From assembly GCF_001940525.2 (NCBI RefSeq), contig NZ_CP019437.1, forward strand, positions 1,462,501 through 1,526,500: a stretch of 64,000 nucleotides of DNA. Reading direction: 5' to 3'. The notes beneath the pieces were generated by a model. The model did not search any database. It had not been told where the DNA came from and was given only the letters and a program-made list of their open reading frames with translations. Positions 45,548 through 64,000 of this stretch are shown in pieces (position 1 is the stretch's first letter; each line of letters opens with the position of its first letter). A program made the position numbers and the translations under genes. This DNA comes from Thioclava nitratireducens. GTDB taxonomy: Bacteria > Pseudomonadota > Alphaproteobacteria > Rhodobacterales > Rhodobacteraceae.

Positions 45548-47026
45548 ATGCTCGACGGGCGCACACGGCGTATTCTCACTCTCTGGTTTCCCCGGCTGGC
45601 GAGCGACCGGGTTCTTCGGGCACGAGCCGTTGAGGGGCCCTTCGCGCTGGTCCTGCGCGAGGGCAATACCGACCGGCTGCACTGCTTGAACGCCGCGGCC
45701 GAGGGGCAGGGGCTGGCGCGCGGCATGGCGCTGTCCGAAGCCCGCGCCTTCTGCCCCACGCTGCAGACCGCGCCCGCCGATCCCGCCCGCGAGGCGCAAT
45801 TCCTCGAGACGCTGCGCCGCTGGGCCACGCGCTATTGCCCTTGGGTGGGCTTGGACGGCGAGGACGGTCTGGTGCTCGACATCACCGGCTCGGATCACCT
45901 TTGGGGCGGTGAAGAGCCGATGATGGCCGAGATGATCGCCCGGCTGGAGCGCGCCCGGATCACCGCGCGGCTTGGCCTTGCCGACACCCGCGGCGCGGCT
46001 TGGGCGCTGGCGCATTTCGCGCCCGGTCGGGCCGCACCCGGCGCGCGGCTCTCGGCTCTGGGCAAGCTGCCGGTGGCCGCGCTGCGCCTGCCGCATGAGA
46101 CGGTGACAGGGTTGCAGCGGCTGGGACTGCGCGAGATCGGCGATCTGACCCGCACGCCGCGAGCACCGCTCGTGCGCCGTTTTGGCGCGGGGCTGATGGC
46201 GCGGCTCGATCAGGCCTTGGGCGATCTGCCCGAACAGGTCTCGCCCGTGGCCGATCCGCCCCATTACGGGACCCGCCTGACCCTGCCCGAACCGATCGGC
46301 CAGCAGGCCGATGTGATGGCGGGGATCGAACGGCTGCTCGATCGGCTCTGCGCCAAACTCAAGGAAAACGAAGTTGGCGCACGGGTGCTCTGCCTTACCC
46401 TGCGCCGCGTCGATCAGGCCAGCCAGGAGGTCGAGCTGCGCTTGGCCACCCCGCTCAGCGACCCCAGCCGGATCGCGGCCCTCTTCGCGCGCGGCATCGA
46501 GGATATCGACGCGGGCTTCGGGATCGATCAGATGCGCCTCGCGGCCACGCAGGTCGAGGCGCTCCCCGCCCGCCAGATCGGCACCATCGCCACCGAGCGG
46601 CGCGACAGGCTGGGCGATCTGATCACCCGGATCGGGCTGCGCATCGGGCTGGAGAACGTCCAGCGCTACCTGCCCGCCGACAGCCATATCCCCGAGCGCA
46701 GCTTCCTGATTGCGCCTGCCGCCTTCACCGACCCCGAGGGCAACTGGCACCAGCCGCACCCTCGCCCGCTGCGGCTGTTCCCGCCGGAGCCGCTCATGTC
46801 CGACGCCCCCGATCCGCCGCGCCGCTTCCGCTGGCGCCGCCAGTCGCTCAGCGCGGAACGCATCGAGGGGCCGGAACGGCTGACCCCGGAATGGTGGTTC
46901 GACGATCCCAACTGGCGGCGCGGGATGCGCGACTATTGGCGCGTCGAGACCGGGCAGGGGCTGCGGCTCTGGATGTTCCACACGCCGCAGGATCCCGGCT
47001 GGTATGTCGAGGGGGTCTTCGCATGA
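45548..47026 (+). CDS. imuB: error-prone repair protein ImuB (catalytically inactive Y-family polymerase)
   Basis: A 492-residue Y-family polymerase-like protein that acts as adaptor of the SOS mutasome by binding the sliding clamp and DnaE2. The start is TLWFPRLASDRVLRARAV, where active DinB polymerases would have the catalytic Asp of the DxD-type strand; LVLDITGSDHLWGGE replaces the second acidic cluster, so no polymerase activity is expected. The helix-hairpin-helix region LRLPHETVTGLQRLGLREIG and the C-terminal RRFRWRRQSLSAERIEGPER are typical. It is preceded by a LexA box and overlaps dnaE2 by 4 bases. No imuA is directly upstream. Confidence 0.92.
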   Translation: MLDGRTRRILTLWFPRLASDRVLRARAVEGPFALVLREGNTDRLHCLNAAAEGQGLARGMALSEARAFCPTLQTAPADPAREAQFLETLRRWATRYCPWVGLDGEDGLVLDITGSDHLWGGEEPMMAEMIARLERARITARLGLADTRGAAWALAHFAPGRAAPGARLSALGKLPVAALRLPHETVTGLQRLGLREIGDLTRTPRAPLVRRFGAGLMARLDQALGDLPEQVSPVADPPHYGTRLTLPEPIGQQADVMAGIERLLDRLCAKLKENEVGARVLCLTLRRVDQASQEVELRLATPLSDPSRIAALFARGIEDIDAGFGIDQMRLAATQVEALPARQIGTIATERRDRLGDLITRIGLRIGLENVQRYLPADSHIPERSFLIAPAAFTDPEGNWHQPHPRPLRLFPPEPLMSDAPDPPRRFRWRRQSLSAERIEGPERLTPEWWFDDPNWRRGMRDYWRVETGQGLRLWMFHTPQDPGWYVEGVFA

Positions 47027-50000
47027 CCGCTCCCTTCGCCTTGGTCGAAATATCCCGGGGGGCGCCCGACGGGCGCGGGGGCAGCGCCCCCTCGGCGGTC
47101 GTGACCACCGCCAACACGCCCGCCATTCCGCTCGCCTATGCCGAGCTTTGCACCACCTCCAACTTCACCTTCCTCACCGGGGCCTCGCATCCCGAGGAGC
47201 TGATGGTGCGCGCCGCCGAACTGGGGCTGGAGGCCATCGCGATCACCGACCGCAACTCGCTCGCGGGCGTGGTTCGGGCGTTTTCGGCGCTCAAGGAACT
47301 CAAGCGCGAGATCGGTGAGGCGCTGCGTATCCGCTCGGAACTGCAGCGCGACGAAAGCTCTCGCCAGCCCATCGGCTCGCCACAGGATCTGGCCCGGCCG
47401 ACAACCGCAAAACTGCCGAAGCTGATCGTCGGCGCGCGGCTGGTGCTGAGCGATTGCCCGGTCGAATGGGTGGCGCTGCCTACCGACCGCGCGGCCTATC
47501 ACCGGTTGAGCCAGCTTCTTACCCGCGGCAAGCGCCGGGCGGGGAAGGGGGAGTGTCACCTGACCCGGGCGGATCTGCTGGAGGGCTGCGCGGGGATGAT
47601 CCTGATCGCTTTGCCGCCCGCCGATCTGGCCCGTGCCTACCGCCCGCTACAAGAGATGCGGCGGCGCTATCCGGGGCAGGTCTTCCTTGGCGCGCCGCCG
47701 CGTTATGACGGCTCGGATCAGCGCTGGTTCGACGCTTGCGCAGCGCTCGCGCTGAGGGCCTCGACGCCGATGGTGGCGACCGGCGACGTGCTGATGCATC
47801 GTGGGTCGCGCCGGCAGCTGGCCGATGTGCTGACCTGCCTGCGCGAGGGCTGCACGATCGACGCGCTTGGTACCCGCGCGCTGCCCAATGCCGAACGGCG
47901 TCTGAAGGGGGCCGAGGACATGGCGCGGCTTTATCGCCGCCACCCCGCAGCCCTGCGTCGCAGCTGCGAGATCGCGGCGCGCTGCGGCTTCGATCTCGAC
48001 GAACTCAGCTACGAATATCCCGACGAGGTCGCTCAGAACGAGCCCGCGCAGGATCGGCTCGACCGGCTCGCCCGCGAGGGGCTGGCGCGGCGCTCTCCGG
48101 GGGGCATCTCGGAGCGGCATGCAGGCCTGCTGGAGAAGGAACTCCGCCTCGTCTCCGAACTGGGCTTCGCCGCCTATTTCCTCACCGTCCATGACATCGT
48201 GAGCTTCGCCCGCAGCCGCGGTATCCTGTGTCAGGGGCGCGGCTCGGCGGCCAATTCGATCATCTGCTGGGCGCTCGGGATCACCGATGTCAGCCCCGAC
48301 CAGATCGGCATGGTCTTCGAGCGGTTCATCTCGAAATATCGCGGCGAGCCGCCCGATATCGACGTCGATTTCGAGCATGAGCGCCGCGAGGAAGTCATCC
48401 AGTGGATCTACGAACGCTACGGCCGCGACCGCGCGGGGCTTTGCGCGACCGTGATCCATTTCCGCACCCGCGCCGCGATCCGCGAAGTGGGCAAGGTGAT
48501 GGGGCTGAGCGCCGATGTCACGGCAAGCCTCGCGGGCCAGATCTGGGGCATTTCCGGTAAGGGGCCGGACCACGCGCGGATGGGTGAGCTGGGCCTCGAC
48601 CCCACCGATCGGCGGCTGTCACAGACGCTGAAACTGATCGGCGAGATCATCGGATTTCCGCGCCATCTCAGCCAGCATGTCGGTGGCTTCGTCATCACGA
48701 AAGGCCGCCTCGACGCGCTTTGTCCGATCGAGAATGCCGCGATGGAGGGGCGTACCTGCATCGAATGGGACAAGGATGACATCGACACGCTGGGCATCCT
48801 GAAGGTCGATATTCTCAGCCTCGGGATGCTCACCTGTATCCGCAAGAGCTTCGAGCTGCTGGCGGGGCACGAGAAGCTGGATATGTCGCTCGCCACCGTC
48901 CCGCAGGAGGACGCGCCGACCTATGAGATGCTGTGCCGCGCAGATGCGGTGGGGGTGTTTCAGGTGGAGAGCCGGGCGCAGATGAACTTCCTGCCGAGGA
49001 TGCGCCCGCAGACGTTCTATGACCTCGTGATCGAGGTCGCCATCGTCCGTCCCGGCCCCATTCAGGGCGGCATGGTCCACCCCTATATCAACCGCCGTCA
49101 GGGCCGCGAAAAGGTCGATTTTCCCTCGAAGGAGCTGGAAGGCGTGCTGGGCAAAACCCTCGGCGTGCCGCTGTTTCAGGAACAGGCGATGCAGATCGCG
49201 GTGGTCGCTGCGGGCTTCACGCCCGAAGAGGCCGACCGCCTGCGCCGCTCGCTCGCGACCTTCCGCAAGATGGGCACGATCGGCACCTTTCGCGACCGGT
49301 TCGTGGAGGGAATGTTGGCGCGCGGCTACACGCCCGATTTCGCCGATCGCTGCTTTTCCCAGATCGAGGGGTTCGGCGAATACGGCTTCCCCGAAAGCCA
49401 CGCGGCGGCCTTCGCGCATCTCACCTATGTCTCCTCCTGGCTGAAGTGCCACCACCCCGCAATCTTCGCCTGCGCGCTGCTGAACTCGCAGCCGATGGGC
49501 TTTTATGCGCCTGCCCAGATCGTGCGCGACGCGCGCGAACACGGGATCGAGGTGCGGCCCGTTTGCGTGAACCATTCGGGCTGGGACAGCTCGCTGGAAC
49601 GCCGCGCGGACGGGGCCCTGGCGCTGCGCCTGGGCTTTCGTCAGATCAAGGGATTTCGCGAGGAGGATGCGGGCTGGATCGTCGCAGCCAGGGGCAATGG
49701 CTACCCCGATCCGGAGAGCCTGTGGCTGCGCGCGGGCACGCCTCCACATGTGCTCGAACGGCTCGCCGAGGCCGATGGATTTGCCGGAATCGGCCTCACG
49801 CGGCGCGATGCGCTCTGGGCCGTGAAGGCGATCCGGGCCCCCGCGCCGCTGCCGCTTTTCGCAGATCCGATGGACGGGGAAGGGGGCCTCGAACCGGCTG
49901 TGGAACTGCCCGCGATGCATCTGGGAGAGGAGGTCGTGGAGGATTACGTGGCCCTCAGATTGAGCCTCCGCGCCCATCCGATGGAGCTGCTGCGCCCCGC

Positions 50001-50436
50001 CATTCCCGGCCTCACGCCGCATTGCGAATTGATCGGCACGCCGCAAAAGCGGGTCACGGTTTGCGGCCTCGTGATCACCCGCCAGCGCCCCGGAACGGCT
50101 TCCGGCGTGATCTTCATCACGCTGGAAGACGAGACTGACGTGAGCAATGTCGTGGTCTGGCCGAAGCTCTATGAACGGTTCCGCCGGGCGGTGATGGGCG
50201 GGCGTCTTCTGCGGGTCTCGGGGCGGCTCGAACGGGAGGGGGCCGTGGTCCATCTGATCGCCGAAAAGATCGAGGATCTCTCCCCGCGACTGGCCGATCT
50301 GGGGCACCCGCTCGACGACGTTCTGGGCCTCACCGCACCCCAAGCGGATGACGCCCCCAGACCCCGTCCGCAGACCACCGCACGTCATCCGCGAGAGCAG
50401 GCGAAACGACTTTTCCCGAGCCGGGATTTCCACTGA
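47023..50436 (+). CDS. dnaE2: error-prone DNA polymerase DnaE2
   Basis: The protein has 1137 residues. The ATG at 47023 overlaps the imuB stop (ATGA) and is chosen over upstream starts that lie in imuB. The PHP domain begins at YAELCTTSNFTFLTGASHP (about residue 40); the polymerase active site is PDIDVDFEHERREE with Asp445, Asp447 and Asp449. A C-terminal OB fold (VTVCGLVITRQRPGTASGVI) is also recognisable. The enzyme performs SOS mutagenesis and lesion bypass with ImuB. The N-terminal 25 or so residues (VEISRGAPDGRGGSAPSA) are encoded by a dispersed repeat and are not conserved in structure. It is the last gene of the cassette. Confidence 0.95.
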   Translation: MTAPFALVEISRGAPDGRGGSAPSAVVTTANTPAIPLAYAELCTTSNFTFLTGASHPEELMVRAAELGLEAIAITDRNSLAGVVRAFSALKELKREIGEALRIRSELQRDESSRQPIGSPQDLARPTTAKLPKLIVGARLVLSDCPVEWVALPTDRAAYHRLSQLLTRGKRRAGKGECHLTRADLLEGCAGMILIALPPADLARAYRPLQEMRRRYPGQVFLGAPPRYDGSDQRWFDACAALALRASTPMVATGDVLMHRGSRRQLADVLTCLREGCTIDALGTRALPNAERRLKGAEDMARLYRRHPAALRRSCEIAARCGFDLDELSYEYPDEVAQNEPAQDRLDRLAREGLARRSPGGISERHAGLLEKELRLVSELGFAAYFLTVHDIVSFARSRGILCQGRGSAANSIICWALGITDVSPDQIGMVFERFISKYRGEPPDIDVDFEHERREEVIQWIYERYGRDRAGLCATVIHFRTRAAIREVGKVMGLSADVTASLAGQIWGISGKGPDHARMGELGLDPTDRRLSQTLKLIGEIIGFPRHLSQHVGGFVITKGRLDALCPIENAAMEGRTCIEWDKDDIDTLGILKVDILSLGMLTCIRKSFELLAGHEKLDMSLATVPQEDAPTYEMLCRADAVGVFQVESRAQMNFLPRMRPQTFYDLVIEVAIVRPGPIQGGMVHPYINRRQGREKVDFPSKELEGVLGKTLGVPLFQEQAMQIAVVAAGFTPEEADRLRRSLATFRKMGTIGTFRDRFVEGMLARGYTPDFADRCFSQIEGFGEYGFPESHAAAFAHLTYVSSWLKCHHPAIFACALLNSQPMGFYAPAQIVRDAREHGIEVRPVCVNHSGWDSSLERRADGALALRLGFRQIKGFREEDAGWIVAARGNGYPDPESLWLRAGTPPHVLERLAEADGFAGIGLTRRDALWAVKAIRAPAPLPLFADPMDGEGGLEPAVELPAMHLGEEVVEDYVALRLSLRAHPMELLRPAIPGLTPHCELIGTPQKRVTVCGLVITRQRPGTASGVIFITLEDETDVSNVVVWPKLYERFRRAVMGGRLLRVSGRLEREGAVVHLIAEKIEDLSPRLADLGHPLDDVLGLTAPQADDAPRPRPQTTARHPREQAKRLFPSRDFH
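47043..47091 (+). repeat. dispersed two-hairpin repeat, copy C (inside dnaE2)
   Basis: GAAATATCCCGGGG (47047-47060) is followed by hairpin GCGCCC-GAC-GGGCGC (47062-47076) and hairpin GGGGGC-AGC-GCCCCC (47077-47091). It lies within the first 25 codons of dnaE2 and is translated in frame. The coding region proper, beginning at YAELCTTSNF, follows about 50 bases later. Confidence 0.75.
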
Positions 50437-50719: not shown

Positions 50720-53700
50720 TTGCCGAAACCGGTGAGCTTCAGGCGCGTCTTGTCTTTGTTCGGCTTGACCAGTGTGACCAAATTCCTGCGTCGGACCCGC
50801 TCCGACGTGCAGGATGACGTCGGTCTGGCCAATGAAGGCGCGCTCCACGAAGCCGATAACACCCTTCACCGCGAAGAAAATTACCGCATCGAGGCCCTCG
50901 AGCCGCGGCTTTTGCTCTCGGCGGACCCGGTGTTCGCCGAATTGGCCCGCGTTGCGGCGACCGCACATCAAATCGACCCGATCGAAGGGCTTTCCGCCCT
51001 AGTTCAGACCGTCGATGACCTGCATCAGCAGGACGAATTGGCAGCCGATCACGATCCCGAGGAAGGCCCGCAAAGCGATGTGGCCTGGCCCGAGGATTGG
51101 GCGCATGAGCCGGAAGTGGCACCGCTCGAAGCGGTCGCCGAACCGGCACGCGAACAGGCTGCAGCGCTGCTGGAAACGGCAGCGGACCAGCTTCATTCCG
51201 GCGGTTTCCTGACTGCCGTTCAGGTGCAGCAGCTGCTGGAATCGGCGCTGTCGTGGCTGGAAGATATGCCCCATGCAGGGCAGGACCCGATTGGCAGTTC
51301 CGTGGCGGACCTGACGGGTCACGAGGCGACCGGCCCCCCGGATGCGAACTCTAATGCACTGGAAAATAACGAAAACACTGACAATCCGGACGCCGGGTCT
51401 GTCACTGCTGGCTCCGACGATACCAGCGAAAATCAAGGGGATAGCCCGGCTGACGAGGGCGCAGAGCCGCAATATCTGCTTCTCGACGCCACCGCGGACA
51501 GCACCGATACCGGCGCTGCGGATATCACCGAGGCTCAGGTCGCCCCGATCTTCCAGGAAGCCCTCGCTCAGTGGGCCAGCCGCACCGACGCGGCGATCCT
51601 GTCGCAACTCACCTTCACCATCACCGATCTCGAGGACGGCGCACTCGCCCGTATCACCGGCACGCTGATCGAGATCGACGCCGACGCTGCCGGGGCCGGT
51701 TGGTTCATCGATGCGACGCCCGCCGACAGCTCCGAATTCGATCTGCTCGCAGGCGACCGTCTGGTGGCGACGGACGGTGCGGCCTCCGAGGGCGTCGACC
51801 TCTACACGGTTCTGCTTCACGAGATCGGCCACGCACTCGGCCTAGACCATAATGCGGACGCTGCGGTGATGAGCGCGACGCTCGGCACCGGCGAGCGCAT
51901 CGGTCTTCCCGACGCGGCCCCGAGCCTCGGCGCTCCGGTCGCCGGCGCGATCTCGGAAGCGGGTGGCGCGCTCGACGGCACCGCCGACAGCAACCTGACC
52001 TACACCGTGAACCTCGACGGCACCGTCTCCGTCAACGGCACGACCTATGGCACGTCCGGCGCCCCGATCACCTCGATCGCGGCAGGGGCCGGCCTCAGCG
52101 ACACGATCGAGGGGCCGGATGCCGCGACGGTCTGGACGATCACCGGCATCAACGAAGGGTCGCTGAGCTGGAACGGCCTCACCATCACCTTCACTGGGGT
52201 CGAGCGTCTCGAGGGTGGCACCGATGCCGATGCCTTCGCGATCGACGGGCCGGGCTTCGTCACTGCAGGCTTCGCGGGCAATGCCGGGCTGATGGAAATC
52301 TCGGTCGGCGATTTCGTGAGCCTCGCGACCAGTGACGGCGTCGGCGCGCCGATTGGCTATACCACCAATACCGGGCTCGACGGTGTGCTCTACGAAGTGG
52401 GCACCGGCACGACGACCGCCGTCACCGGCGGTCTCGAGGTCACCACCATCGCGCTCACCAGCGGCTCGTTCTTCGCGGGCAGCGGTGCGAACGGCTACTT
52501 CACCCGCGGCCAGCCCAACAGCTCGGTCGGCTTCGCGGTCGACAACCTCAGCTTCTCGGTCAAGATGATCCGCGAGACCGCGACGGGCCGCCAGTGGGTG
52601 ATCGCCAATGGCGCGGTCGATGCGCTGGGTCTGGTGAATGTCGACGGCGTGACCGCAACGCTCTCGAACGGCACGCTGGAACTGGTGACCTCGCAACTGA
52701 CCGACCCCAACGATACGCTGAGCGCCAAGCTCGTCGTCTCCGAGATCGACAGCGTAGCGACGGGCGCGACCGCGCCGCTCGCGAAAGTGTCGGGCAACGT
52801 GACGCTGGCCATCGGCGGCGAGGTTCTGATCGCGGGCGGGTTCAGCTTCACCAAAACTATCGTCAGCGGCCTGACCGGCGCGACCGACACGATCGGCGAT
52901 CTGATGGTCTTCGGCTTCGACTCGGTCAACTTCTTCGCGGGCACCGGCGCGGTCTTCGACACAAGCGGCCCGGTCACCGTCGACACCTCCAACGCCTTCG
53001 GTTTCTCGGTCACCGGCTTCACCGGCACCTTCGCGGTGCTGAGCACGGGCGGCACCACCTATACCGGCATCGACTTCTCCTTTGCCAACGCGACCCCGGT
53101 CGGCATTACCGGGCTGACCGCCGAGGTGAGCAATGTCGCGGTGCAAGTGAACACCGCGTCGGGCGTCGCTACCCCGCTGAATTGGGATCAAGGCGCCCTG
53201 AGCGATGCCGGGCTGACATTGAACGGTGCGCTCACCAAGGTCGAAGCCACCGCGACGCTGGTCGTGAAGGACGCGGTCTATGTCAGCGGCACCTTCGCCC
53301 TGGAAAGCTCCGCCAAGACCGGCGTGACCTTCAACGGTGCATCTGAGGATGGCGATTACTTCACCCTCTCGATCATCGGCGGGCGCCTCTTCGCGGGCGT
53401 CGGCGCCGAAGTCTCGGGCGGCAGCTACGACCTGACCAATGCCACCGGCTTCGAAATCCCGACGCTCAATCTCACCCTGGCCATGTTCACCGTGACCTCG
53501 GCTGGGGCGAACCTAGGCCAGAAGGTCACCGCGCTGGAACTCTCGACCGCGGCGACGCTGCACGGGATCAGCAACGTGACCGCGACCGTCGATGCGCTCG
53601 ACGTGACCTATGCCAGCATGGCGTTCGACTGGACGCAGGTCGGTGGGCCGAGCTTCAGCTTCGACAGCACCTTCTCGGGCTTCACGATCGATGTGCGCGC

Positions 53701-56700
53701 GGTCTTCGCGATCAAGAGCACCGTCCTGCTCGCAGGCGATATCGCGATCACGGTGACGAAGCAGACCATCGCCGCGGCGGATAATCCGCTTGGTACCGAT
53801 CTGACCGATGCGCAGGTGATGACCTTCGCACTGGCGGACGGCTACATCTTCGTGGGCAGCGGCGGCAGCTTCACCACCGATGTCGACGGCAAGGTCAACG
53901 GGCTGACCCGCGATGGCGACAGCAAGCTGGTCGGCACCGGCTTCGGCGCGGAAGGCGTGCTGTTCGAATTCGCCTCGGTGAAGAATGTCGATGGCACGAC
54001 CGGCGCCGTTCTGAACGCCTGGAGCGCGATCAAGCTCCATGTCGGCACGGTGGAAGTCGCGGGCATTCCGGGCTTCACGCTTGCAGTCAGCGATTTCGTG
54101 GTCGAAGTGAATGCGCCCGATACCAAGGGCGGGATGAACCCGACGGTGATGACCTGGAAGGGGCTCGATCTGGGCACGACGCTTGCGCTGACCGACGCCA
54201 CGGACGGCTTCGACAATACCGAGCGCTTCTTCATCGGCGCCACCATCGACGAGCTGAACATCTCGGACACCATGCTGCTGACCGGCGGCTTCTCGGTCGA
54301 GAAGACCGCGGGCACCTCGGTCGGCGGCGTAACCGGAGATCTGCTCTACATCACGCTTACCGATCTGGACCTCTTCGCGGGCTCGGGCGCAACCATCGGC
54401 GCAAGCGGGCTCGACACCACGAATGCCATCGGCTTCTCGGCGATGGGTGGCAATTTCTACATCGGCATCCTGACCACCACCGACCCGACCCCGATCAGCT
54501 ATACCGGCGTGTCGGCGAGCCTCGCGAGCCTCGGTCTGGTGAATGTCGAAGGCGTGACGCTGGACCTTGCGAGCCTGAAAGTGCTCTACAACTCGGTCAG
54601 CGATAACACCCTCTCCACTCTCGACTGGTCGAGCCTGTCCGGCCTCGAAGAGGTGACCGACACGGTAAGCCTCGCGGTCTCGGGCAAGCTGACGCTGGCG
54701 GTGAGCGATTTCGTCTATCTGCGCGCGACCTTCGGGCTGAAGGCGATCGACGTGACGGCGCAGGCGGGCAGCACCGAGACGCTCGATCTGCTCGATATCA
54801 CCGCGGGCAAGCTGACCTTCGTGAAGCTCAGCGATGTCGAGTTCTTCGCGGGCACCGGTGCGTCGACCACCACCGATGAGGCGACCGGCACGACCACGCT
54901 CGCCCTCGCGAGCGATGCTGCGGGTCTCTATGCGGCGGGTGGTAATCTTGCGCTTGGCCTGCTGACCGACACGACGACCGGCGTGAAATACACCGGGGTG
55001 ATCGGCTCGTTGAGCGCGCTGGAGGCCAAGGGCATCGACGCGGTTCAGATCAAGCTGTCGGGCATGGCACTGGCCTCGAACTCGACCACGGCGCTGACCG
55101 GCCCGCGCCTCGACTGGTCGACCGTGAACGATACCTACGTGACCACGGCGCTTGGCGATCTGGGCCCGGGTGATCAGCTGGCCGTGTCTGGTACGCTGTC
55201 CGTCGAGATTTCCGAGACGGTCTTTGCGCTCGCCACCTTCAACTTCTCGGCCTCGACCGAGACTATCGACGACACCATCCAGGCGGCGATCACCGATGCG
55301 CAGGTCACGCGGCTGACCCTGACGAATGTGAATTTCTTCGCCGGTGTCGGCGGTGCCTTCGATGACGCCAATGCGCCCACCGCGATTGCCGATCAGGGCA
55401 TCGGCTTCCTTGCCTCGGGCGGCACGCTCGAACTGATCGTGGTGAAAGAGCAAGTCGGCACCGCCACGCCCAAGAGCTGGAGCGCGCTGTCGCTCTCGGT
55501 CGATTACGTCGGGATGCGCGGACTGCCCACAGAATTCGCGCTCGGGGTCACCGGGCTCTACTTCCGCATGAACACGGCCTCGGTCGGCGCGACCAAGCTG
55601 GATTGGTCGGCCATTGTCGACGCAACCGAGAACCCCGGGATCGCTCAGATCAATGCCGATACCGGCATCGCCTTCGGCGGCACGCTCGATCTGGCGCTCG
55701 ACGGCTTCGTGCTGGTCTATGGCACGGTCAAAGGCTCGATCTCGACCGCCGATATCAACGACGGCGAGATCACCCTGACCGCCGCAGATATCACCAGCTT
55801 CAAGATCACCGAGGCGCAGATATTCGTCGGTGCTGGCGGCGCGTTCGATCGTGATGCGACCACGAACGAGGTGACCGGGCTGCTCGATCAGGGCACCGGC
55901 ATCCATGCTTCGATGGTGGCGGGCGATGCCTTGGAATTCGCGCAGGTGACCCGCCTCGGCGTGCTGACCGATAATGGGGCGACCAACGACAACGACGCGG
56001 CCACGCAATGGGACGATGAGACCGTCACCATCGGCTGGACCGCCTTGCGCGTCACCGTCGCGAGCCTCGGCCTGCGCGGCATCGACGCCTTCCAGATCGC
56101 GCTGGCCGATCTCGCGGTCGACGGGAATTTCGCGGCCATCGACGGCACCTTCCTGAACTGGGCGTCGCTGGGTGCAGTCACCGGGCTCGACATGCTGAGC
56201 CTCGCCGATGCCACCGACGGCCTGACCCGCGATGATGGCTTCTCGGTCTCCGGCACCGTGACGGAGCTGAACGTGGCGGGCGTGATCGTCGCCTCGGGTA
56301 CCTTCGGCATCAAGAGCTTCACGAGCGACATCATCGTGCCTTCCGGCATGACGACCGAGACCGTGCTGGGTGCGAATATCCTGATCTTCACCCTGTCCGA
56401 TCTGAACCTCTTCGCAGGTGTCGGTGGGGCGCTTCTGTCCGACGGCACGATCGATCCCGATCAGGGCACCGGCTTCGTGGCCGAGAACGCCTCGCTGCAA
56501 CTGGTGCTGGTGAAGGAAGATCCGGCAGGCGTGACCCTCCCGGCAGTGCCGCGCAGCTGGACCGCAGTTGCGCTCGACGTAGCCACGGTGCGTCTGCAGG
56601 GGCTGCCGAACACGGTCACCGTGCAGGGCCTCGACCTCTATTTCGGCTTCAACGGCGCGGATGCGGTGAATGGCGAGCGGATCGACTGGGCCGCGACCGG

Positions 56701-59700
56701 CGTGACCGAGATCGGCGACCTCGCCTCGGGCGATCTGTTCGACGTCACCGAGATGGGCGCAAGCTTCAACATCGCCTTCGGTGGCTATGTCGAGTTCACC
56801 GTCGACGGCTTCGTCACCGTCGCTGGCACGATGGCGGGCCAGATCCGGACCGAGACGCTCGACGACGGCAACGGGCTGATCGTCGAGGGCGCCTCGGTGA
56901 TGACCTTCGCGCTGACCGGCGGCTATTTCTTCGCGGGGCAGGGCGGGGTGTTCACCCGCACCGATGGCAAGATCACGGATGTCAGCACGACCGAGGGTAC
57001 CGGCATCTATGCGAACAACGTGGGCATCGAGTTCGCCTCGGTCACCCAGACCGCCGACAACCCGCTGACGACAGGTGTGGTCGAGACCCGCACGGTCAAA
57101 AGTTGGTCGGCAATCCTCGTGACCTCGCAAAGCGTCGGCGTGACCGGCCTTACGGGCTTCACGCTGCGGATATCGGACGTCGCGGTTGAAGCCAACTTCG
57201 GCTACACCGACCCGCTGAACGCGGCCAACAACTCGGTGATGAACTGGAAGGGCCTCGATCTGGGCCTGACAATCACCGACAGCACGGATGGCTATGACGC
57301 GACCGCGATCCTGTCGGTGACCGGCACCGTGTCGGAGCTGAACGTCGCGGGCATCGTGATCGCGACGGGCACCTTCTCGATCAAGAGCCTGCTCGCCGAT
57401 GTGGCGGTCGCCACCGCAATCGACGCCGATGGCACGCTGAGCGGGGCGAAGGTTCTGATCTTCACCCTGAGCGATCTGAACTTCTTCGCCGGTGTGGACG
57501 GTGCGCTCAAGAATGATGGCACGATCGATCCCGATCAGGGTATGGGCTTCGTGGCGCAGGGCGGCTCGATCGAGCTGGTGATGGTGTCAGAAGACCCGGC
57601 CACCGTGACCTCGCCCGCCGTGGCTCGCAGCTGGATGGCCCTGTCGCTGCGCGTCGATCAACTGGGTCTGCAGGGCCTGCCGCTGACCGCGACGGTGAAG
57701 GATCTCTACTTCGCGATGAACGGCGCCGATGCGGACGGAAACAAGCTCGACTGGGGCGCGACCGGGGTCGATCAAATCAACGCGCTGGCCGACATCACCA
57801 ATCTCGATGCGGGCTTCGGCATCGAATTCGGCGCCTATGTCGAATTGCAGATCGAAGGGGCGATCCTGCTGGCGGGCGGTCTGTCGGGTGTGATCCGCGA
57901 TCTCACCGTCGACGATCCGCAGGGCGGCACGATCAGCGCCAAGGCCTTCTCCTTCTCGATCGACGGCGCCTATGTCTTCGTCGGCGCGGGCGGCGAGTTC
58001 ACCTATGACGAATTCGACCGGGTCGACGCGGTCGCCAATGCGGGCACGGGCTTCGCGGCCGAAGGGCTCGCCTTCGACCTGATCTCAGTGACCGAGGTGG
58101 TCGATCTGGTCGCAAACCCGAGCGCCGTCGCGCGCAGCTGGACCGCGATGTCCGCCCATGCCGACACGATCTCGCCGCGCGGCCTGCCGCAGGGGCTGGA
58201 CCTGACGGTGACCTCGCTCGACTTCACGGTGAACGGGCGCGACGCCACCAATAGCGACCAACTCGACTGGGCGCCGATCATTCAGGATCTGGGCGTCGAC
58301 GCGGTTGCGCCCGAAGACGGCACGGATCTGGTGATCTCGGGCGGTCTGGATTTGGATATCTTCGGCTTCGTCACCGGCTCGGCCACCTTCGACATCGTGA
58401 TGCGCAACCAGATCGAGGCAGAGCTGGATAGCACCAATGCGGGTCTCGAAAACGCGAGCCTCATGCTGATCGGCCTGCATGTGCAGGACCTCTTCGTCGG
58501 CCAGCCCGGCGGTGTAGGCCTGTCGGTGGCTTCCGCCGATATCGCGCTCGCGCTGATCAAGGCGACCCCGCCTGCGAACAGCACGCTGCCCGTGACCGCC
58601 ACGCCTTCGGCGACCGCGGTGCTGGGCAATATCCAGGGCGGCACGCTCGCCGGTCTGCCCGAGGGAATGGAGCTGACGGTCAACGCCTTCTCGCTCGACT
58701 ATTACGCAACGAAGCCTGCCGGGAACGGTATCACCACCTTCTTCGACTGGAACTCGATCGATCTGGACGGCACGCCCGCGCAGGGGGATCCCGCGAACGA
58801 TCCGGCGGGTCCGGTCTCCTTCACCTATGGCCCGAACGACGAAGTGGTCACTTTCGACGCCAGTGCAGACAGCACGCAGGTCGTGGGCTACCTGACGCTC
58901 AACGCCTTCGGCTTCGTCGATGTGGGCGCGAAGTTCACTCTGTCGCAGAATATCGTCGATGTGGATGTGAACCACGATGGCACCTTCGATATCGCGACCG
59001 ACATGAACGATGCGGTGCTGACCCGGATCAGCCTGAGGATTAATCCTGCGGACGAGGGTGGCGACGCCCCGGCCGATTACGAGGCCAAGTTCTTCATCGG
59101 CATCCCAGACGGTCCCGGCATCACCATCGAAAGCGCCGATATCCTGCTCGCCTCGATCAAGGCGGCCAATCCGCTCACCGACACCCGGGCCTTCACCGCG
59201 CTCAAGGCCGATATCGCCTCGGCCTCGCTGACCGGGGTCGATCTGGTGGACATCACGCTCGACACGCTGTCGCTCGAGATGAACAAGGCGAATGATGCGA
59301 CCGGCGTGATCGGCGTGCTCGACTGGGGCCAGTCGATCAATCTCGACTCGACCGAATGGACCGATGGCGACACCGGCATCACCGGTCAGGACCTGCTCGC
59401 CGCGACGAATGGCAATGACGTCGATCCGGCCACCACTGACACGGTCCTCGATATGAGCCAGTCGGGCTTCTCGCTCTTCGCGGGTGCGACGATCGTGATC
59501 GAGGACTTCGTCTTCATCCAGGGCCAGATCACGCTGACCAAGACCGACAAGGTCGCAGCCCGCATGGTCGGTTCGACCACCTCCTTCGAAGCTTCGGTGC
59601 TGTCGATCGGTATCTCGGATGCCGTGGTCTTCGCCGGGGTCGGCACGCCGACGATCACCAATGGCGAAGTCGATGCCACCTCCGATGCGACGGGTGTCGC

Positions 59701-62700
59701 GCTCTCGCTGCAGCGCATGGGCCTGCATATCGTCAAGGAAATGCCGCTCGATCCGGCGAACCCGACAGCCACTCCGCTCAAGAGCTGGATGGTCGTGAAG
59801 GCGACGGGCGGGGCCTCGTTGATCGGCGTCGACAATGTCACGGTCGATGGCTCGCTCACGCTGATCATGAACCGCGGCGGCAACGAAACGACGCCCTACA
59901 ATACGCTCGACTTCACCTATGGCGGGGTGGGCGGCACCTGGGACATCACGGTCGGCGCCGAGACGATCACCTTCGACGAACTGACCGTGGCGACGCTGGA
60001 AGTGTCGGGCTCCCTGACCATCGGCTTCGACTCCTATGTCTTCATCCAGGGCGAGTTCGCCTTCACCCAGTCGAGCGAGATTTATTCCGCCCTCGTCGCG
60101 GGCACGAGCACGAGCCGCAATCTCAAGGCGGTGACGGTCGGCGCACAGCATGTGAACATTTTCGTCGGCACCGGCTACGACCTGACCAAGGCCTTCGGCG
60201 ATCAGGGCGATGCGGTCGGCCTGAAGATCACCGATGCTTATCTCGCGCTCGCCATGTTCAAGACGGTCGACGCAAATGGCGTGGCGCTGGCCGCGACCGA
60301 TCCGGCGGCGGCTTCGTACATGGCGCTGAAGGCGGGCGGCACGGTCGAGTTGGTGGGCATCGACGGGTTGACGCTCTCGGGCTACGGGCTCGAGGTCGAG
60401 CTGAACCAGGGCAAACTTCTGAGCACGCAGGCCAAGGAAGCGCTGAACCTCGCAAGCTTCGATGGCGGCAGTTTCGACGTGAAGGTGAGCGACACCGATA
60501 CCGTGACGCTCGATGCCAATGGCGCGATCCTTGCAGCGTCCGGCTTCGTCGTGCTGGGCTTCGAGGATTACGTCTTCCTCGCGGGGCAGGTGGCCTTCCA
60601 GAAGGGCGCGACCCTGACCGTCGGCACGGCGCCGAACCAGAAGACTTTCGCTGCGACCGAAATCTCGGGCGATGGCATCAGCGCCTTTGTCGGCACCGGC
60701 GGGCCGTATTTCGAGGTCGATACTTCGGGCGACACCCCGGTCGTGCAGCCGATGGCCGATACTTCGGGGGCACAGGGGCTGGTCCTGACCAACTTCTCCT
60801 TCCGCCTCGCCATGCTGAGCCAGGTCGATGCCAATGGCGTCGCGGTCGTGGGCGGCGAGAAATACACCGCGCTCTATGCGTCGATAGCAGAGGTCGCGCT
60901 TGCCGGAATTCCAGGTGTCGCGATCAGTGCGAGCGGCGTCGAACTCAAGCTCAACCAAGGCAAGTCGGGCACCGCAGGAGCGGGCGCCCAGACGATCCTC
61001 ACGGGCTTCGACTTTACGGAGGTGACGGGCCTCGACCCCGGTGCCACGGCCTTTGCAGATATGACCCCGCTGCAGGCGTTCTACGACCTCAGCTACAAGG
61101 GCAATTTCCTTTCGGTCTCGGCTTATGGAGATCCGGTGGGATCGGGGATCGAGCTTCTCGTGAACCTCTCGGGCGATACGCCCACCAGCGCAGACGATGC
61201 CGACTTTGCCTTCTCCGGCGATCTGTCCTTCGAAAAGACCACGAGCGCGACGGGCGCGGTCTACTCGAAAATCTCGCTGACCGACATCACCCTGACATTC
61301 GGCGATTATGAATTCACCGGCAACGCGCTGCTATACCTGATGCCGCAGGGCATGGCGGGCAGCTTCTCGGTTACGCTTCCCGATATCGCGTTCGACGACG
61401 GCACCAATGCCTACCAGATCGGCAATGGCACGACGGCGACGCTCGAGATCAACACCTCCATTCAGGCGGTTTATGTCGAGTTCGCGAATGGCGACATCCT
61501 CGACCTGCCGCGCGGGCAGTTCCTGCGGGTCGAAGTCGAGAACGCCGCCTTCTCTGTCGACTTCAACGCGACTGATAACGACAATGACGGCACGATCGAC
61601 GTGGGCAACGCCCCCGAGATCAGCCTGAGCGGCACGCTGATGTTCTCGCAGCTGACGACCGGGGTTGCGCCGACCCAGACCAAGCGCATGACCATCGCCT
61701 TCACCGGGGTCTCGGGCGGCTATACGGACTCGAATGGCGACGGCTTCACCATCCAAGACGCGAAGGGCGTGATCCTGATCTATTCGGGCTCGGCCACCCT
61801 GTCGCAGAACGGGGTCGCCGCGCAGATCGAGGCGAGCGCGCAAGGCTCGGCGGCGGGCTTCTCTGCCTCGGCCAGCGCGATCATCCGCATCAACACCACG
61901 TCGCGCACCGACATCTACGAAGAGGTCGACGTGGGCGATGCGACCTACATTCTCGACTTCCGGGGTCAGGCCAATGTGAACCAGATCGCGCTGGCCGAGG
62001 TGAAGCTGAGCTACGAGCCTTACTTCACCATCGAAGGCAGCCTGAGCGACATACTCCCGGCCGAACTGCCTGCGGGCGCGACCAGCGGCAAGATTGGGCG
62101 CAACATCTCGATCTTCCTCGGCGACGCGGGCGATCCGAACGATCCCAATGACGATATCGGCCTGCTGATCTCGAACACCACGATCGCGATCTTCGAATTC
62201 GGCACCTCCGCCAACCGCAAATTCGCGGTCTATGCGAAGGGCGAGGTTCAGGCGCTGGGCATTCCGGGACTCAATATCTCGGGCACGGTCGAAGTGTGGC
62301 TCAACACGTCGGGCACCGCCTTCTCGACCACCGTGACCGGCTTCCCGCTGCTCGAAGGCGGCACCTCGGCCACTCCGGTCGCGATCACCTTCGTCGCCCC
62401 GCAGATGGAGCGCGTGAAGGGCTCGGTCGAGATCAGCTTCGGCGTGGCCGAGACCGGCGATCTGCTGGTGATCAGCTCCAACGACGTTCTGTTCAACAAG
62501 ACGCCCGATGGCCGGATCTCGGTCGATGCGCCCGAGACCTCGATCACCGTGACGCCGCCGGGAGCCGACAGCTTCGGCATCGAAGGCGCGGCCCAGTTCA
62601 GCTTCGGCGGCGCGACCGGCTTCCAGCTGACCGATATGCGGGTGACGGGCTACACGCTCTTTGGCGAGACCGTCTCGGTGACGCCGACGACGAACCTGCG

Positions 62701-64000
62701 CCCGCTGACCGCCGATATTGCCTCGCCGCTCAATGGCCAGATCATCAATCTCGACGGCTTCACCTATATCGACGTCACTTTCTACAACACCAACCGTCTG
62801 GATGCGGATGCCTACCCGGCCTATCCGCTGGGCATCGACCCGGAATCGATCACCGATATCGACCCCGAGTTCACGATCACCGCGCGCTATGGCGACACGA
62901 CGGCGGCGATCATGGTCGATGGGGCAGGGGTGCTGGTCGAAGGCACGGCGCGCCCGACCTATCGCTACAAGATCACCACGCCTTTGAGCCTGTCCGCGAA
63001 CACCACCTATGAGGTGCAGTTCCTCGCCAATTCCTGGCGCGATGCCGCCGGAGCGCAAAGCGCTGCCGAATACGAGCGCTTCACGATCCGCAAGACGCCG
63101 GTTCAGAATGCGCCCGCGGCGAACCCGGCGACCGATCCGCAGGATTTGACCACGATCACCGCCGCGCCTTCGATCGAGCTGGCCTCGCCCTTCAATGGCG
63201 CGGTGATCGACAAGTCGATGCTGAACTCGAAGGGCTATATCGACGTCACCTTCGTGCTGCCCAATGGCGAGATCCTCGATGGAGGCTCGATCAATGGCGA
63301 CGAGATCCGCTTCGTGCGCACGGGCGGCGCGTCGAACGTCAATCTGCTGACGAACACCAACGGCACCTATACGGTCGAGAAGATCGGCAAGACGACCTAT
63401 CGCTATTACGTCTTCGCCGAGCCGCCCGCCGCGACCGCCACCGGCACGGGTGTGGTCGGCACGCCGACTTCGACCTCGACCTCGCAGGCGAACCCGGCCT
63501 TCAATGTGGGCGATGTGCAGGTCGAGTTCATCACCGGCACCTGGAAATACACCGATCGCGGCGCCAATCTGGACAGCACCTCCGACGATGTCGTCTACTG
63601 GTTCGGCGGCGAGAACGGCTCGGTCGCGTCGCCCGCGAAGACCACCGCCTATGTGCAGATCTTCAAGGTGCAGGAACTGCCGGCGGCCGAGGCTGCGACC
63701 CCGATCAAGGTCGGTCCGGTCTCGATCCTCGCGCCGAAGGTCGGTCTTGCGAAGCTCGGCTTCAAGGACGGTCTGCTGGTCCTGACGATCTCGGTCGGAG
63801 CGGAAAGCGCTTCGCTCGCCTTCGGTGGCACCGCGACCCAGAATGCCGATGGCACCCAGACCAATAGCGGCGGCACCCAGATCACCCTTACCAACCTGCT
63901 GGTGAAGTTCGATATCGGCATCGATGTGATGGGCGTGATTTCGGGCGGCGGCGACGATCCGGTCGTCTCGCTCACCGGCAAATGGTCGATCACCGCCGAC
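50720..64000 (+). CDS. giant LEPR-XLL repeat protein with metzincin motif (5' part, runs off the window)
   Basis: One frame stays open from about 50720 to the window end, at least 4,427 codons, and continues. The start is TTG at 50720 four bases after GGAGG; GTG at 50732 is the alternative. Residues 60-70 read LEPRLLLSADP, the LEPR-XLL motif found near the N-terminus of very large surface or secreted proteins. An acidic linker follows. Residues 367-377 read HEIGHALGLDH, the HExxHxxGxxH zinc site of metzincins, with a Met-turn at Met384 (AAVMSATLG). From residue 584 to about 3330 come at least 17 diverged repeats, then other beta-rich modules. No Cys was seen in the stretches I translated. No conventional signal peptide is visible; export through type I secretion is inferred. 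Confidence 0.88.
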   Translation, partial: MPKPVSFRRVLSLFGLTSVTKFLRRTRSDVQDDVGLANEGALHEADNTLHREENYRIEALEPRLLLSADPVFAELARVAATAHQIDPIEGLSALVQTVDDLHQQDELAADHDPEEGPQSDVAWPEDWAHEPEVAPLEAVAEPAREQAAALLETAADQLHSGGFLTAVQVQQLLESALSWLEDMPHAGQDPIGSSVADLTGHEATGPPDANSNALENNENTDNPDAGSVTAGSDDTSENQGDSPADEGAEPQYLLLDATADSTDTGAADITEAQVAPIFQEALAQWASRTDAAILSQLTFTITDLEDGALARITGTLIEIDADAAGAGWFIDATPADSSEFDLLAGDRLVATDGAASEGVDLYTVLLHEIGHALGLDHNADAAVMSATLGTGERIGLPDAAPSLGAPVAGAISEAGGALDGTADSNLTYTVNLDGTVSVNGTTYGTSGAPITSIAAGAGLSDTIEGPDAATVWTITGINEGSLSWNGLTITFTGVERLEGGTDADAFAIDGPGFVTAGFAGNAGLMEISVGDFVSLATSDGVGAPIGYTTNTGLDGVLYEVGTGTTTAVTGGLEVTTIALTSGSFFAGSGANGYFTRGQPNSSVGFAVDNLSFSVKMIRETATGRQWVIANGAVDALGLVNVDGVTATLSNGTLELVTSQLTDPNDTLSAKLVVSEIDSVATGATAPLAKVSGNVTLAIGGEVLIAGGFSFTKTIVSGLTGATDTIGDLMVFGFDSVNFFAGTGAVFDTSGPVTVDTSNAFGFSVTGFTGTFAVLSTGGTTYTGIDFSFANATPVGITGLTAEVSNVAVQVNTASGVATPLNWDQGALSDAGLTLNGALTKVEATATLVVKDAVYVSGTFALESSAKTGVTFNGASEDGDYFTLSIIGGRLFAGVGAEVSGGSYDLTNATGFEIPTLNLTLAMFTVTSAGANLGQKVTALELSTAATLHGISNVTATVDALDVTYASMAFDWTQVGGPSFSFDSTFSGFTIDVRAVFAIKSTVLLAGDIAITVTKQTIAAADNPLGTDLTDAQVMTFALADGYIFVGSGGSFTTDVDGKVNGLTRDGDSKLVGTGFGAEGVLFEFASVKNVDGTTGAVLNAWSAIKLHVGTVEVAGIPGFTLAVSDFVVEVNAPDTKGGMNPTVMTWKGLDLGTTLALTDATDGFDNTERFFIGATIDELNISDTMLLTGGFSVEKTAGTSVGGVTGDLLYITLTDLDLFAGSGATIGASGLDTTNAIGFSAMGGNFYIGILTTTDPTPISYTGVSASLASLGLVNVEGVTLDLASLKVLYNSVSDNTLSTLDWSSLSGLEEVTDTVSLAVSGKLTLAVSDFVYLRATFGLKAIDVTAQAGSTETLDLLDITAGKLTFVKLSDVEFFAGTGASTTTDEATGTTTLALASDAAGLYAAGGNLALGLLTDTTTGVKYTGVIGSLSALEAKGIDAVQIKLSGMALASNSTTALTGPRLDWSTVNDTYVTTALGDLGPGDQLAVSGTLSVEISETVFALATFNFSASTETIDDTIQAAITDAQVTRLTLTNVNFFAGVGGAFDDANAPTAIADQGIGFLASGGTLELIVVKEQVGTATPKSWSALSLSVDYVGMRGLPTEFALGVTGLYFRMNTASVGATKLDWSAIVDATENPGIAQINADTGIAFGGTLDLALDGFVLVYGTVKGSISTADINDGEITLTAADITSFKITEAQIFVGAGGAFDRDATTNEVTGLLDQGTGIHASMVAGDALEFAQVTRLGVLTDNGATNDNDAATQWDDETVTIGWTALRVTVASLGLRGIDAFQIALADLAVDGNFAAIDGTFLNWASLGAVTGLDMLSLADATDGLTRDDGFSVSGTVTELNVAGVIVASGTFGIKSFTSDIIVPSGMTTETVLGANILIFTLSDLNLFAGVGGALLSDGTIDPDQGTGFVAENASLQLVLVKEDPAGVTLPAVPRSWTAVALDVATVRLQGLPNTVTVQGLDLYFGFNGADAVNGERIDWAATGVTEIGDLASGDLFDVTEMGASFNIAFGGYVEFTVDGFVTVAGTMAGQIRTETLDDGNGLIVEGASVMTFALTGGYFFAGQGGVFTRTDGKITDVSTTEGTGIYANNVGIEFASVTQTADNPLTTGVVETRTVKSWSAILVTSQSVGVTGLTGFTLRISDVAVEANFGYTDPLNAANNSVMNWKGLDLGLTITDSTDGYDATAILSVTGTVSELNVAGIVIATGTFSIKSLLADVAVATAIDADGTLSGAKVLIFTLSDLNFFAGVDGALKNDGTIDPDQGMGFVAQGGSIELVMVSEDPATVTSPAVARSWMALSLRVDQLGLQGLPLTATVKDLYFAMNGADADGNKLDWGATGVDQINALADITNLDAGFGIEFGAYVELQIEGAILLAGGLSGVIRDLTVDDPQGGTISAKAFSFSIDGAYVFVGAGGEFTYDEFDRVDAVANAGTGFAAEGLAFDLISVTEVVDLVANPSAVARSWTAMSAHADTISPRGLPQGLDLTVTSLDFTVNGRDATNSDQLDWAPIIQDLGVDAVAPEDGTDLVISGGLDLDIFGFVTGSATFDIVMRNQIEAELDSTNAGLENASLMLIGLHVQDLFVGQPGGVGLSVASADIALALIKATPPANSTLPVTATPSATAVLGNIQGGTLAGLPEGMELTVNAFSLDYYATKPAGNGITTFFDWNSIDLDGTPAQGDPANDPAGPVSFTYGPNDEVVTFDASADSTQVVGYLTLNAFGFVDVGAKFTLSQNIVDVDVNHDGTFDIATDMNDAVLTRISLRINPADEGGDAPADYEAKFFIGIPDGPGITIESADILLASIKAANPLTDTRAFTALKADIASASLTGVDLVDITLDTLSLEMNKANDATGVIGVLDWGQSINLDSTEWTDGDTGITGQDLLAATNGNDVDPATTDTVLDMSQSGFSLFAGATIVIEDFVFIQGQITLTKTDKVAARMVGSTTSFEASVLSIGISDAVVFAGVGTPTITNGEVDATSDATGVALSLQRMGLHIVKEMPLDPANPTATPLKSWMVVKATGGASLIGVDNVTVDGSLTLIMNRGGNETTPYNTLDFTYGGVGGTWDITVGAETITFDELTVATLEVSGSLTIGFDSYVFIQGEFAFTQSSEIYSALVAGTSTSRNLKAVTVGAQHVNIFVGTGYDLTKAFGDQGDAVGLKITDAYLALAMFKTVDANGVALAATDPAAASYMALKAGGTVELVGIDGLTLSGYGLEVELNQGKLLSTQAKEALNLASFDGGSFDVKVSDTDTVTLDANGAILAASGFVVLGFEDYVFLAGQVAFQKGATLTVGTAPNQKTFAATEISGDGISAFVGTGGPYFEVDTSGDTPVVQPMADTSGAQGLVLTNFSFRLAMLSQVDANGVAVVGGEKYTALYASIAEVALAGIPGVAISASGVELKLNQGKSGTAGAGAQTILTGFDFTEVTGLDPGATAFADMTPLQAFYDLSYKGNFLSVSAYGDPVGSGIELLVNLSGDTPTSADDADFAFSGDLSFEKTTSATGAVYSKISLTDITLTFGDYEFTGNALLYLMPQGMAGSFSVTLPDIAFDDGTNAYQIGNGTTATLEINTSIQAVYVEFANGDILDLPRGQFLRVEVENAAFSVDFNATDNDNDGTIDVGNAPEISLSGTLMFSQLTTGVAPTQTKRMTIAFTGVSGGYTDSNGDGFTIQDAKGVILIYSGSATLSQNGVAAQIEASAQGSAAGFSASASAIIRINTTSRTDIYEEVDVGDATYILDFRGQANVNQIALAEVKLSYEPYFTIEGSLSDILPAELPAGATSGKIGRNISIFLGDAGDPNDPNDDIGLLISNTTIAIFEFGTSANRKFAVYAKGEVQALGIPGLNISGTVEVWLNTSGTAFSTTVTGFPLLEGGTSATPVAITFVAPQMERVKGSVEISFGVAETGDLLVISSNDVLFNKTPDGRISVDAPETSITVTPPGADSFGIEGAAQFSFGGATGFQLTDMRVTGYTLFGETVSVTPTTNLRPLTADIASPLNGQIINLDGFTYIDVTFYNTNRLDADAYPAYPLGIDPESITDIDPEFTITARYGDTTAAIMVDGAGVLVEGTARPTYRYKITTPLSLSANTTYEVQFLANSWRDAAGAQSAAEYERFTIRKTPVQNAPAANPATDPQDLTTITAAPSIELASPFNGAVIDKSMLNSKGYIDVTFVLPNGEILDGGSINGDEIRFVRTGGASNVNLLTNTNGTYTVEKIGKTTYRYYVFAEPPAATATGTGVVGTPTSTSTSQANPAFNVGDVQVEFITGTWKYTDRGANLDSTSDDVVYWFGGENGSVASPAKTTAYVQIFKVQELPAAEAATPIKVGPVSILAPKVGLAKLGFKDGLLVLTISVGAESASLAFGGTATQNADGTQTNSGGTQITLTNLLVKFDIGIDVMGVISGGGDDPVVSLTGKWSITAD
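52469..60694 (+). repeat. 17 diverged tandem repeats in the giant protein
   Basis: A motif of the form [F/L/I/V]F[A/V/I]G followed by Gly-rich residues recurs in frame at 52469, 52931, 53387, 53846, 54371, 54842, 55334, 55820, 56408, 56927, 57482, 57974, 58490, 59090, 59627, 60158 and 60683. The spacing is 456-600 bases (152-200 residues). Most units also contain a W-[S/T/M]-A-[L/V/I] strand about 60-80 residues later and an [L/F/I/M]xW (often LDW) about 120 residues later. Units starting at 56408 and 57482 are the most alike. Confidence 0.85.
62720..63640 (+). repeat. two Ig-like modules near the window end
   Basis: The protein segments beginning ASPLNGQIINLDGFTYIDVT (residue 4001) and ASPFNGAVIDKSMLNSKGYI (residue 4155) share the opening ASPxNG and a YIDVTF strand. 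They are about 154 residues apart and look like bacterial Ig-like modules with a sulfur-free beta fold. This is a different repeat class from the 17 upstream. Confidence 0.6.

Follow-up and report, generated by a model that had tools for sequence, protein, structure and literature searches.

The window analyzed here is a 64,000-nucleotide stretch of Thioclava nitratireducens DNA, spanning positions 1462501-1526500 of a 4.24 Mb genome. On its plus strand, one frame contains no stop from 50648 to the end of the window at 64000. We followed this frame into contiguous genome stretches (positions beyond 64000 are given in extended window coordinates) and found that its stop ends at 89002. The preliminary description reported more than 4,400 stop-free codons and named an early stop after 64000 as a reason for doubt. 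No such stop was found on extension, and the frame is longer than had been claimed, with 12,764 codons counted from the first possible start, TTG 50708. The start chosen in the preliminary description, TTG 50720, is preceded by GGGAGGGAG, and the alternative TTG 50750 matches the shorter N-termini of the orthologues from Thioclava pacifica and Sinirhodobacter. Because several TTG starts are possible, we give the length of the giant as ~12,750-12,764 residues. The part of the gene inside the window (50720..64000, +) is about its first third.

The corresponding frame comprises 12,896 codons in T. pacifica and 12,719 in Sinirhodobacter sp. WL0062. Selection was assessed over the full length of the gene. 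Against the two orthologues, dN/dS was 0.32 and 0.30 over 12,204 and 12,480 aligned codons, and pN/pS was <0.55 in each 1000-residue block in both comparisons. The GC content by codon position is similar to that of two neighboring genes. Given the low pN/pS in all blocks, the dN/dS of ~0.3 and the codon-position GC, we conclude that the giant frame is a real gene under selection; the dN/dS test rules out a frame artefact. The same purifying selection supports translation of the frame, which the preliminary description had listed as open to challenge. The encoded protein contains no cysteine and few lysines.

Close to the N-terminus, at residues 80-96 of the open frame, the giant carries the LEPR-XLL motif (...NYRIEALEPRLLLSADP..., 50885..50935, +), which matches the LEPR-8K profile NF012209 with 27.4 bits (cut-off 17). 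It is followed by a matrixin (M10) domain (51521..51886, +; PF00413, 32.2 bits, cut-off 24) with the zinc site HEIGHALGLDH (51818..51850, +) and the Met of the Met-turn just downstream. This N-terminal copy combines HExxHxxGxxH, a Met-turn and a matrixin fold, and may be catalytic; taken alone, the best Foldseek E-value for the domain was only 3.8e-3. The site is kept in both close orthologues, as HEIGHALGYDH and HEIGHALGHDH. The LEPR-XLL tag on a very large protein and the complete metzincin site, both proposed in the preliminary description, are therefore confirmed by profiles, motif and fold, and the loss of the site in close relatives that it had anticipated as an objection was not seen in these two. 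We extracted LEPR N-termini from 60 loci, of which 5 did not fit the LEPR pattern. HExxHxxGxx[HD] occurs in only 9 of the remaining 55, in a stretch of ~500 residues or less behind the tag, so an N-terminal zinc site is not general among these proteins.

Self-comparison revealed an internally repetitive region at about residues 500-3400 (52205..60907, +). The C-terminal half contains RTX repeats, with PF00353 above cut-off and 22 GGxGxD motifs within residues 7001-12000 (71708-86707, +), as expected from the calcium-binding C-terminus suggested in the preliminary description. Near the end lie a P-domain (PF01483; 88103-88408, +) and a second, shorter matrixin-like domain (88604-88783, +), whose zinc motif HEFGHILGLAD (88706-88738) starts 98 residues before the C-terminus, beyond the window. 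The third ligand of this copy is Asp in the window's protein and in T. pacifica, so that the M10 zinc site is incomplete there, and His in Sinirhodobacter. HExxHxxGxxD recalls what we take to be snapalysin-type chemistry, an assignment that we set aside since Sinirhodobacter carries His. HExxHxxGxx[HDE] was detected near the end of the frame preceding the cassette described below in 11 of the best 80 of at least 562 loci, many of which are partial. The giant is presumably a surface or matrix protein, cysteine-free and RTX-bearing, of ~12,760 residues; outside the cell it may serve as matrix material, as an adhesin or as a surface layer.

Four co-directional genes follow the giant, separated by 36, 1, -8 and 12 bases if the first possible starts are used. 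Profile matches identify them as GAF-HlyD (653 aa; 89039-91000, +), M50-HlyD (716 aa; 91002-93152, +), a SecA-like protein (664 aa; 93145-95139, +) and HlyD (268 aa; 95152-95958, +). The preliminary description had suggested looking here for type I secretion genes. This guess was not borne out: a Pfam scan recognized no ABC exporter, and no SecY or SecY2, among the four cassette proteins and the next four proteins, and we rejected a type I exporter downstream of the giant on operon content. The window's genome has three outer membrane factor matches at two places, none of them beside the cassette.

A simple hydropathy scan indicated one transmembrane-like segment between the GAF and HlyD parts of GAF-HlyD, and five such segments in M50-HlyD. 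The latter carries HELGH and LRFDGYY; across 27 homologues, neither HELxH nor the Asp of LRFDGYY varies, and the protein thus has the HExxH and distal Asp of an M50 site-2 protease (H210, E211, H214, D312). At E 0.01, profiles matched subsets of the 27 members: PqqD in 12, M50 (PF02163) in 13 and HlyD_3 in 19. On the member nearest to the window's M50-HlyD, PF02163 scored only 16.3 bits (cut-off 27.2) and PqqD gave no match at E 0.01. The window's protein reached 159.7 bits with NF041824, under the cut-off of 300. In a structure model of modest quality (pLDDT 70.5, pTM 0.44), the C-terminal half resembles MexA, AcrA and MacA at E 1e-11 or weaker. No PqqD fold was discernible in the N-terminal part, where the model is poorest and of too low quality.

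The SecA-like protein scored 324.7, 187.6 and 89.7 bits with PF07517, PF21090 and PF01043, respectively. It has the DEAD, P-loop and preprotein cross-linking domains of SecA, and its ATPase motifs, including TGEGKT and VDEADS, are intact. Its match to 1m6n (802 residues), which we take to be Bacillus subtilis SecA, stops at chain residue 604, and the protein lacks the portion that follows the beginning of the helical scaffold in full-length SecA and SecA2. This portion presumably holds the two-helix finger, and we assume that it corresponds to the region that contacts SecY in known SecA. The window's genome also encodes a full-length SecA, 41% identical to the SecA-like protein over the matched part, and both forms are present in 15 of 15 further genomes (accessory frames of 660-804 aa, full-length SecA of 842-1073 aa). 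In a tree obtained by a quick search with SH-aLRT support only, a single branch (SH-aLRT 100%) separates 15 SecA-like from 16 full-length proteins. L225 was flagged as a long branch. The tree includes the window's own SecA-like protein and leaves out L223, missed by the motif filter, and the second short SecA of G310, which had no locus. The accessory SecA is labeled "prepilin peptidase" in some records (P0138, P0165, P0213), apparently in error.

Using only an alignment of 27 M50-HlyD proteins, we compiled the best 80 of at least 562 confirmed loci, to which the counts in this and the next paragraph refer. The closest named relative among them is T. pacifica (M50-HlyD 92% identical). GAF-HlyD lies ahead of M50-HlyD in all 62 loci with room upstream, a SecA-like gene lies behind it in 60 of the 61 with room downstream, and both flank it in 49 of the 50 with room on both sides. 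HlyD (E <1e-20) was detected anywhere in the locus in 57 of the 80. Among the matches listed, the named hosts include alpha-, beta-, gamma- and deltaproteobacteria, Nitrospira and a Rokubacterium. On a different contig, T. pacifica carries a second set, where a 4,619-codon frame with LEKRYLLSAD is followed by the cassette in the same order (identities: GAF-HlyD 37%, M50-HlyD 38%, a divergent SecA-like frame 27% over 276 residues, HlyD 41%).

Recurring neighbors fall into a DUF3467 cluster (14 loci), a TolC-type outer membrane efflux protein (OEP) cluster (8) and a SapC cluster (6), each confirmed with Pfam for one member. DUF3467-type genes were seen near the cassette in L053, L054, L062, L063, L071, L072 and others, and SapC-type genes in L067, L089, L110, L111, L112 and L114; by its name, SapC hints at a surface layer. 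Four further neighbor clusters resemble antisense frames. The presence of TolC-family genes (PF02321) was confirmed for L091, whose cluster is the eight-locus one, and for L050 of Sulfuritalea sp. In the latter, the OEP gene sits between the HlyD match and GAF-HlyD, and the genome's LEPR frame has 19,202 codons. Pfam was run on nine neighbor frames, and those of L061 and L102 had no family match. We recognized no ABC exporter in the clusters common to at least four of the 80 loci, which were partly Pfam-scanned.

LEPR-XLL giants are linked with the cassette in gene order and across genomes. LEPR-8K was detected in 55 of the 80 genomes (21/40 and 34/40) that carry the best 80 of at least 562 loci, many of them metagenome-assembled. 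A first alphaproteobacterial sample of 240 genomes contained M50-HlyD in 11, with identities of 25-31% apart from that of the window itself, and LEPR-8K in five, including the window's own. For larger comparisons we called an M50-HlyD match strong at E 1e-90 and used it as a stand-in for the whole cassette. This cut-off, chosen after seeing the tables, falls in a gap from 4.6e-92 to 1.0e-47 among Rhodobacteraceae and in a small gap from 8.2e-91 to 1.3e-72 in the phylum sample. With this post hoc threshold, among 248 Rhodobacteraceae genomes (one per genus), LEPR-8K was present in 21 of 23 with strong M50-HlyD versus 5 of 225 others (Fisher p 1e-23), and LEPR-8K frames of at least 1,500 aa in 21 of 23 versus 1 of 225. 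The phylum sample (398 genomes) gave M50-HlyD of any strength in 52 of 54 LEPR genomes versus 40 of 344 others (p 4e-37). Here, LEPR-8K was detected in 35 of 39 genomes with strong, 17 of 53 with only weak and 2 of 306 with no M50-HlyD, under the same post hoc cut-off.

Within the Rhodobacteraceae, the estimated end of the LEPR frame is 0.9-2.8 kb from M50-HlyD in 19 of 23 same-contig pairs, the exceptions being G328, G402, G456 and G518. In 18 of the 19 close pairs, both are on the same strand with the LEPR frame first; in G369, they are on opposite strands, tail to tail. Five genomes have two strong M50-HlyD and two LEPR matches each: in G356, G383, G471 and G520, each M50-HlyD shares a contig with a LEPR frame, and in G550 none does. 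Of the two genomes with strong M50-HlyD and no LEPR match, G498 has a giant-like 3' end before the cassette on a short contig, and G563 has all four cassette genes matched on a 13 kb contig without a LEPR frame. In the five LEPR genomes without strong M50-HlyD, four frames are <1,200 aa and that of G409 is 1,664 aa. No cassette gene was matched on the 9 kb contig of G409. In G449, the LEPR frame lies beside an HlyD match, and neither M50-HlyD nor SecA was matched in the 20 kb read.

Some LEPR loci show fewer of the cassette genes. L086 (G289) and L247 (G731) comprise a LEPR frame, GAF-HlyD, M50-HlyD and HlyD, with SecA unmatched in the stretch read. From the phylum sample we also examined 16 loci picked by hand. 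Twelve of them (L247 included) came from LEPR genomes and four from genomes without LEPR, and all except L247 were chosen at weak M50-HlyD matches. SecA was matched in none of the 16, and none contained an ABC motif pair, as judged with a crude pattern on frames of at least 180 aa. Several of L240-L246 and L248-L255 have what looks like a SecA-less sister cassette, a large frame followed by OEP or OmpA, HlyD, HlyD and M50-HlyD. Pfam confirmed parts of it in L244 and L246, from LEPR genomes, and in L254, from a genome without LEPR, where the giant has beta-propeller and Ig-like domains. The LEPR frame of G731 (L247:261-8813:-) contains DUF4347 and many Ig-like repeats, with no matrixin match. 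The existence of LEPR loci without SecA implies that SecA cannot be the sole possible motor, and that the M50-HlyD core is the constant partner of LEPR, with the SecA-like protein marking one large branch.

In a comparison of 54 N-termini with LEPR, the position two residues ahead of this motif was occupied by Glu (49) or Asp (5). The three residues behind LEPRxLL were mostly Ser (46), Ala (48) and Asp (46); the motif positions themselves served to select these N-termini. The 40 residues preceding the motif have a mean net charge of +4.9 (>0 in 47 of 54), and a stretch of 40 residues behind it a mean of -5.4 (<0 in all 54). A MAFPF-type start ahead of the basic stretch was seen in 14 of the 54 (for example, L126, L154, L159 and L175). 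By its sequence, the LEPR N-terminus has the appearance of a basic leader and a motif for recognition and possibly cleavage, followed by the beginning of an acidic mature protein. We infer that M50-HlyD reads or cuts this leader.

Taken as a whole, the cassette probably encodes an export machine that is dedicated to LEPR-XLL giants and apparently new to the literature, to judge from its domains, the conserved gene order and the association across genomes. In the mechanism that we propose, the N-terminal leader, a basic stretch followed by E-x-LEPR-x-LLSAD, would tag the giant. The PqqD-like N-terminus of M50-HlyD would bind the leader, and the membrane metalloprotease domain of this protein may cleave it close to LLSA/D. 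As the putative energy source, the SecA-like ATPase would feed the chain from the cytoplasm; it retains both nucleotide-binding domains and the preprotein-binding domain and ends before the two-helix finger. GAF-HlyD, M50-HlyD and HlyD would act as adaptors and together build a duct through the periplasm to an outer-membrane channel of the TolC type, and the GAF domain, predicted to lie across the membrane from the HlyD part, could gate export. Outside the cell, calcium would fold the RTX part, and the matrixin domains may trim or release the giant. Going further, we tentatively raise as a serious possibility that this is a new Gram-negative secretion type. A finger-less SecA would then stand in for the ABC or RND pump of a tripartite HlyD/TolC duct, PqqD-M50-HlyD would read and cut the LEPR leader, and the SecA-less sister cassette would share the duct.

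Alternatively, the giant could leave the cell by ordinary RTX type I secretion, through an unlinked ABC-HlyD-TolC exporter that recognizes a C-terminal signal, with the cassette assisting or doing other work. The RTX repeats, the cysteine-free and lysine-poor composition, the adjoining HlyD members and the outer membrane factor genes elsewhere in the genome are what such a substrate would show. However, neither the eight proteins scanned behind the giant nor the shared neighbor clusters of the best 80 of at least 562 loci yielded an ABC exporter, the crude pattern returned no ABC motif pair at the 16 further loci, and LEPR genes closely track M50-HlyD. We consider this route unlikely. An improbable reading, in our estimate, is also passage through SecYEG, where the accessory SecA would help or partner the housekeeping SecA while the M50 and HlyD proteins take care of processing and outer-membrane passage, as a Gram-negative counterpart of accessory Sec. 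It would explain how some cassettes manage without their own SecA, and it fits the retained ATPase and preprotein-binding domains and the full-length SecA of the window's genome and of the 15 others. Yet the SecA-like protein lacks the C-terminal part that contacts SecY in known SecA, we recognized no classical signal peptide by eye, and no SecY is among the eight proteins scanned.

The GAF domain and the invariant M50 site would also suit a module for sensing and proteolysis, with a GAF sensor, a site-2-type protease and a SecA-like unfoldase, that controls the neighboring surface protein and does not export it. Against this, the cassette has three distinct adaptors of the HlyD type, and other lineages carry TolC-family genes within or next to it, which points to a duct. 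We regard this reading as very improbable.

The proposed export machine resembles several known systems. Accessory Sec (SecA2/SecY2) of Gram-positives serves large adhesins, and the present locus likewise pairs a second SecA with one large adjoining surface protein, but it is Gram-negative, has HlyD adaptors and a C-terminally short SecA-like protein, and shows no SecY2 in the proteins scanned. With type I secretion (HlyB/HlyD/TolC) of RTX giants it shares HlyD adaptors, RTX repeats, a cysteine-free substrate and, in some lineages, TolC, but in place of a linked ABC exporter it has an M50-HlyD membrane protein and a SecA-like ATPase. Because a linked ABC exporter, the C-terminal part of SecA and SecY2 were not found, we assign the machine to neither system. 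M50 metalloproteases of RiPP pathways (NF041824, daptide; NF058609, epipeptide) are similar in being HExxH membrane proteases, with a PqqD-like start in part of the M50-HlyD family; M50-HlyD differs in its fusion to a MexA/AcrA-type adaptor and in its tie to giants, not small peptides. Relative to the LEPR-XLL proteins gathered under NF012209, the giant has the same E-x-LEPR-x-LLSAD tag and great length, but it is linked to a cassette and has matrixin copies at both ends.

The genes around the giant and its cassette were also noted. Two genes lie directly upstream of the giant (45548-50436, +), one resembling Y-family polymerases (IMS, ImuB type) and the other of the DNA polymerase III alpha type (DnaE2 type); they are probably a pair for SOS mutagenesis. 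Downstream of the cassette (96556-101809) are GH26-like, CelA-like glycosyltransferase and sugar epimerase genes on the minus strand, followed by a LuxR-type regulator on the plus strand; this region is possibly an exopolysaccharide locus.

We found no description of LEPR-XLL export or of the cassette in the literature. LEPR-XLL proteins were named only in passing in the papers covered, including a mention of a Vibrio LEPR-XLL protein of ~8000 aa with RTX and serralysin domains (PMC10868602). Since preprints and most subscription journals were outside this search, novelty is provisional. LEPR-XLL giants are among the largest bacterial proteins, with frames of up to 19,202 and 19,427 codons. 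The cassette gives their tag a candidate reader and the question of their export a knockout test, and it makes one ask how a SecA that lacks the two-helix finger could move a protein.
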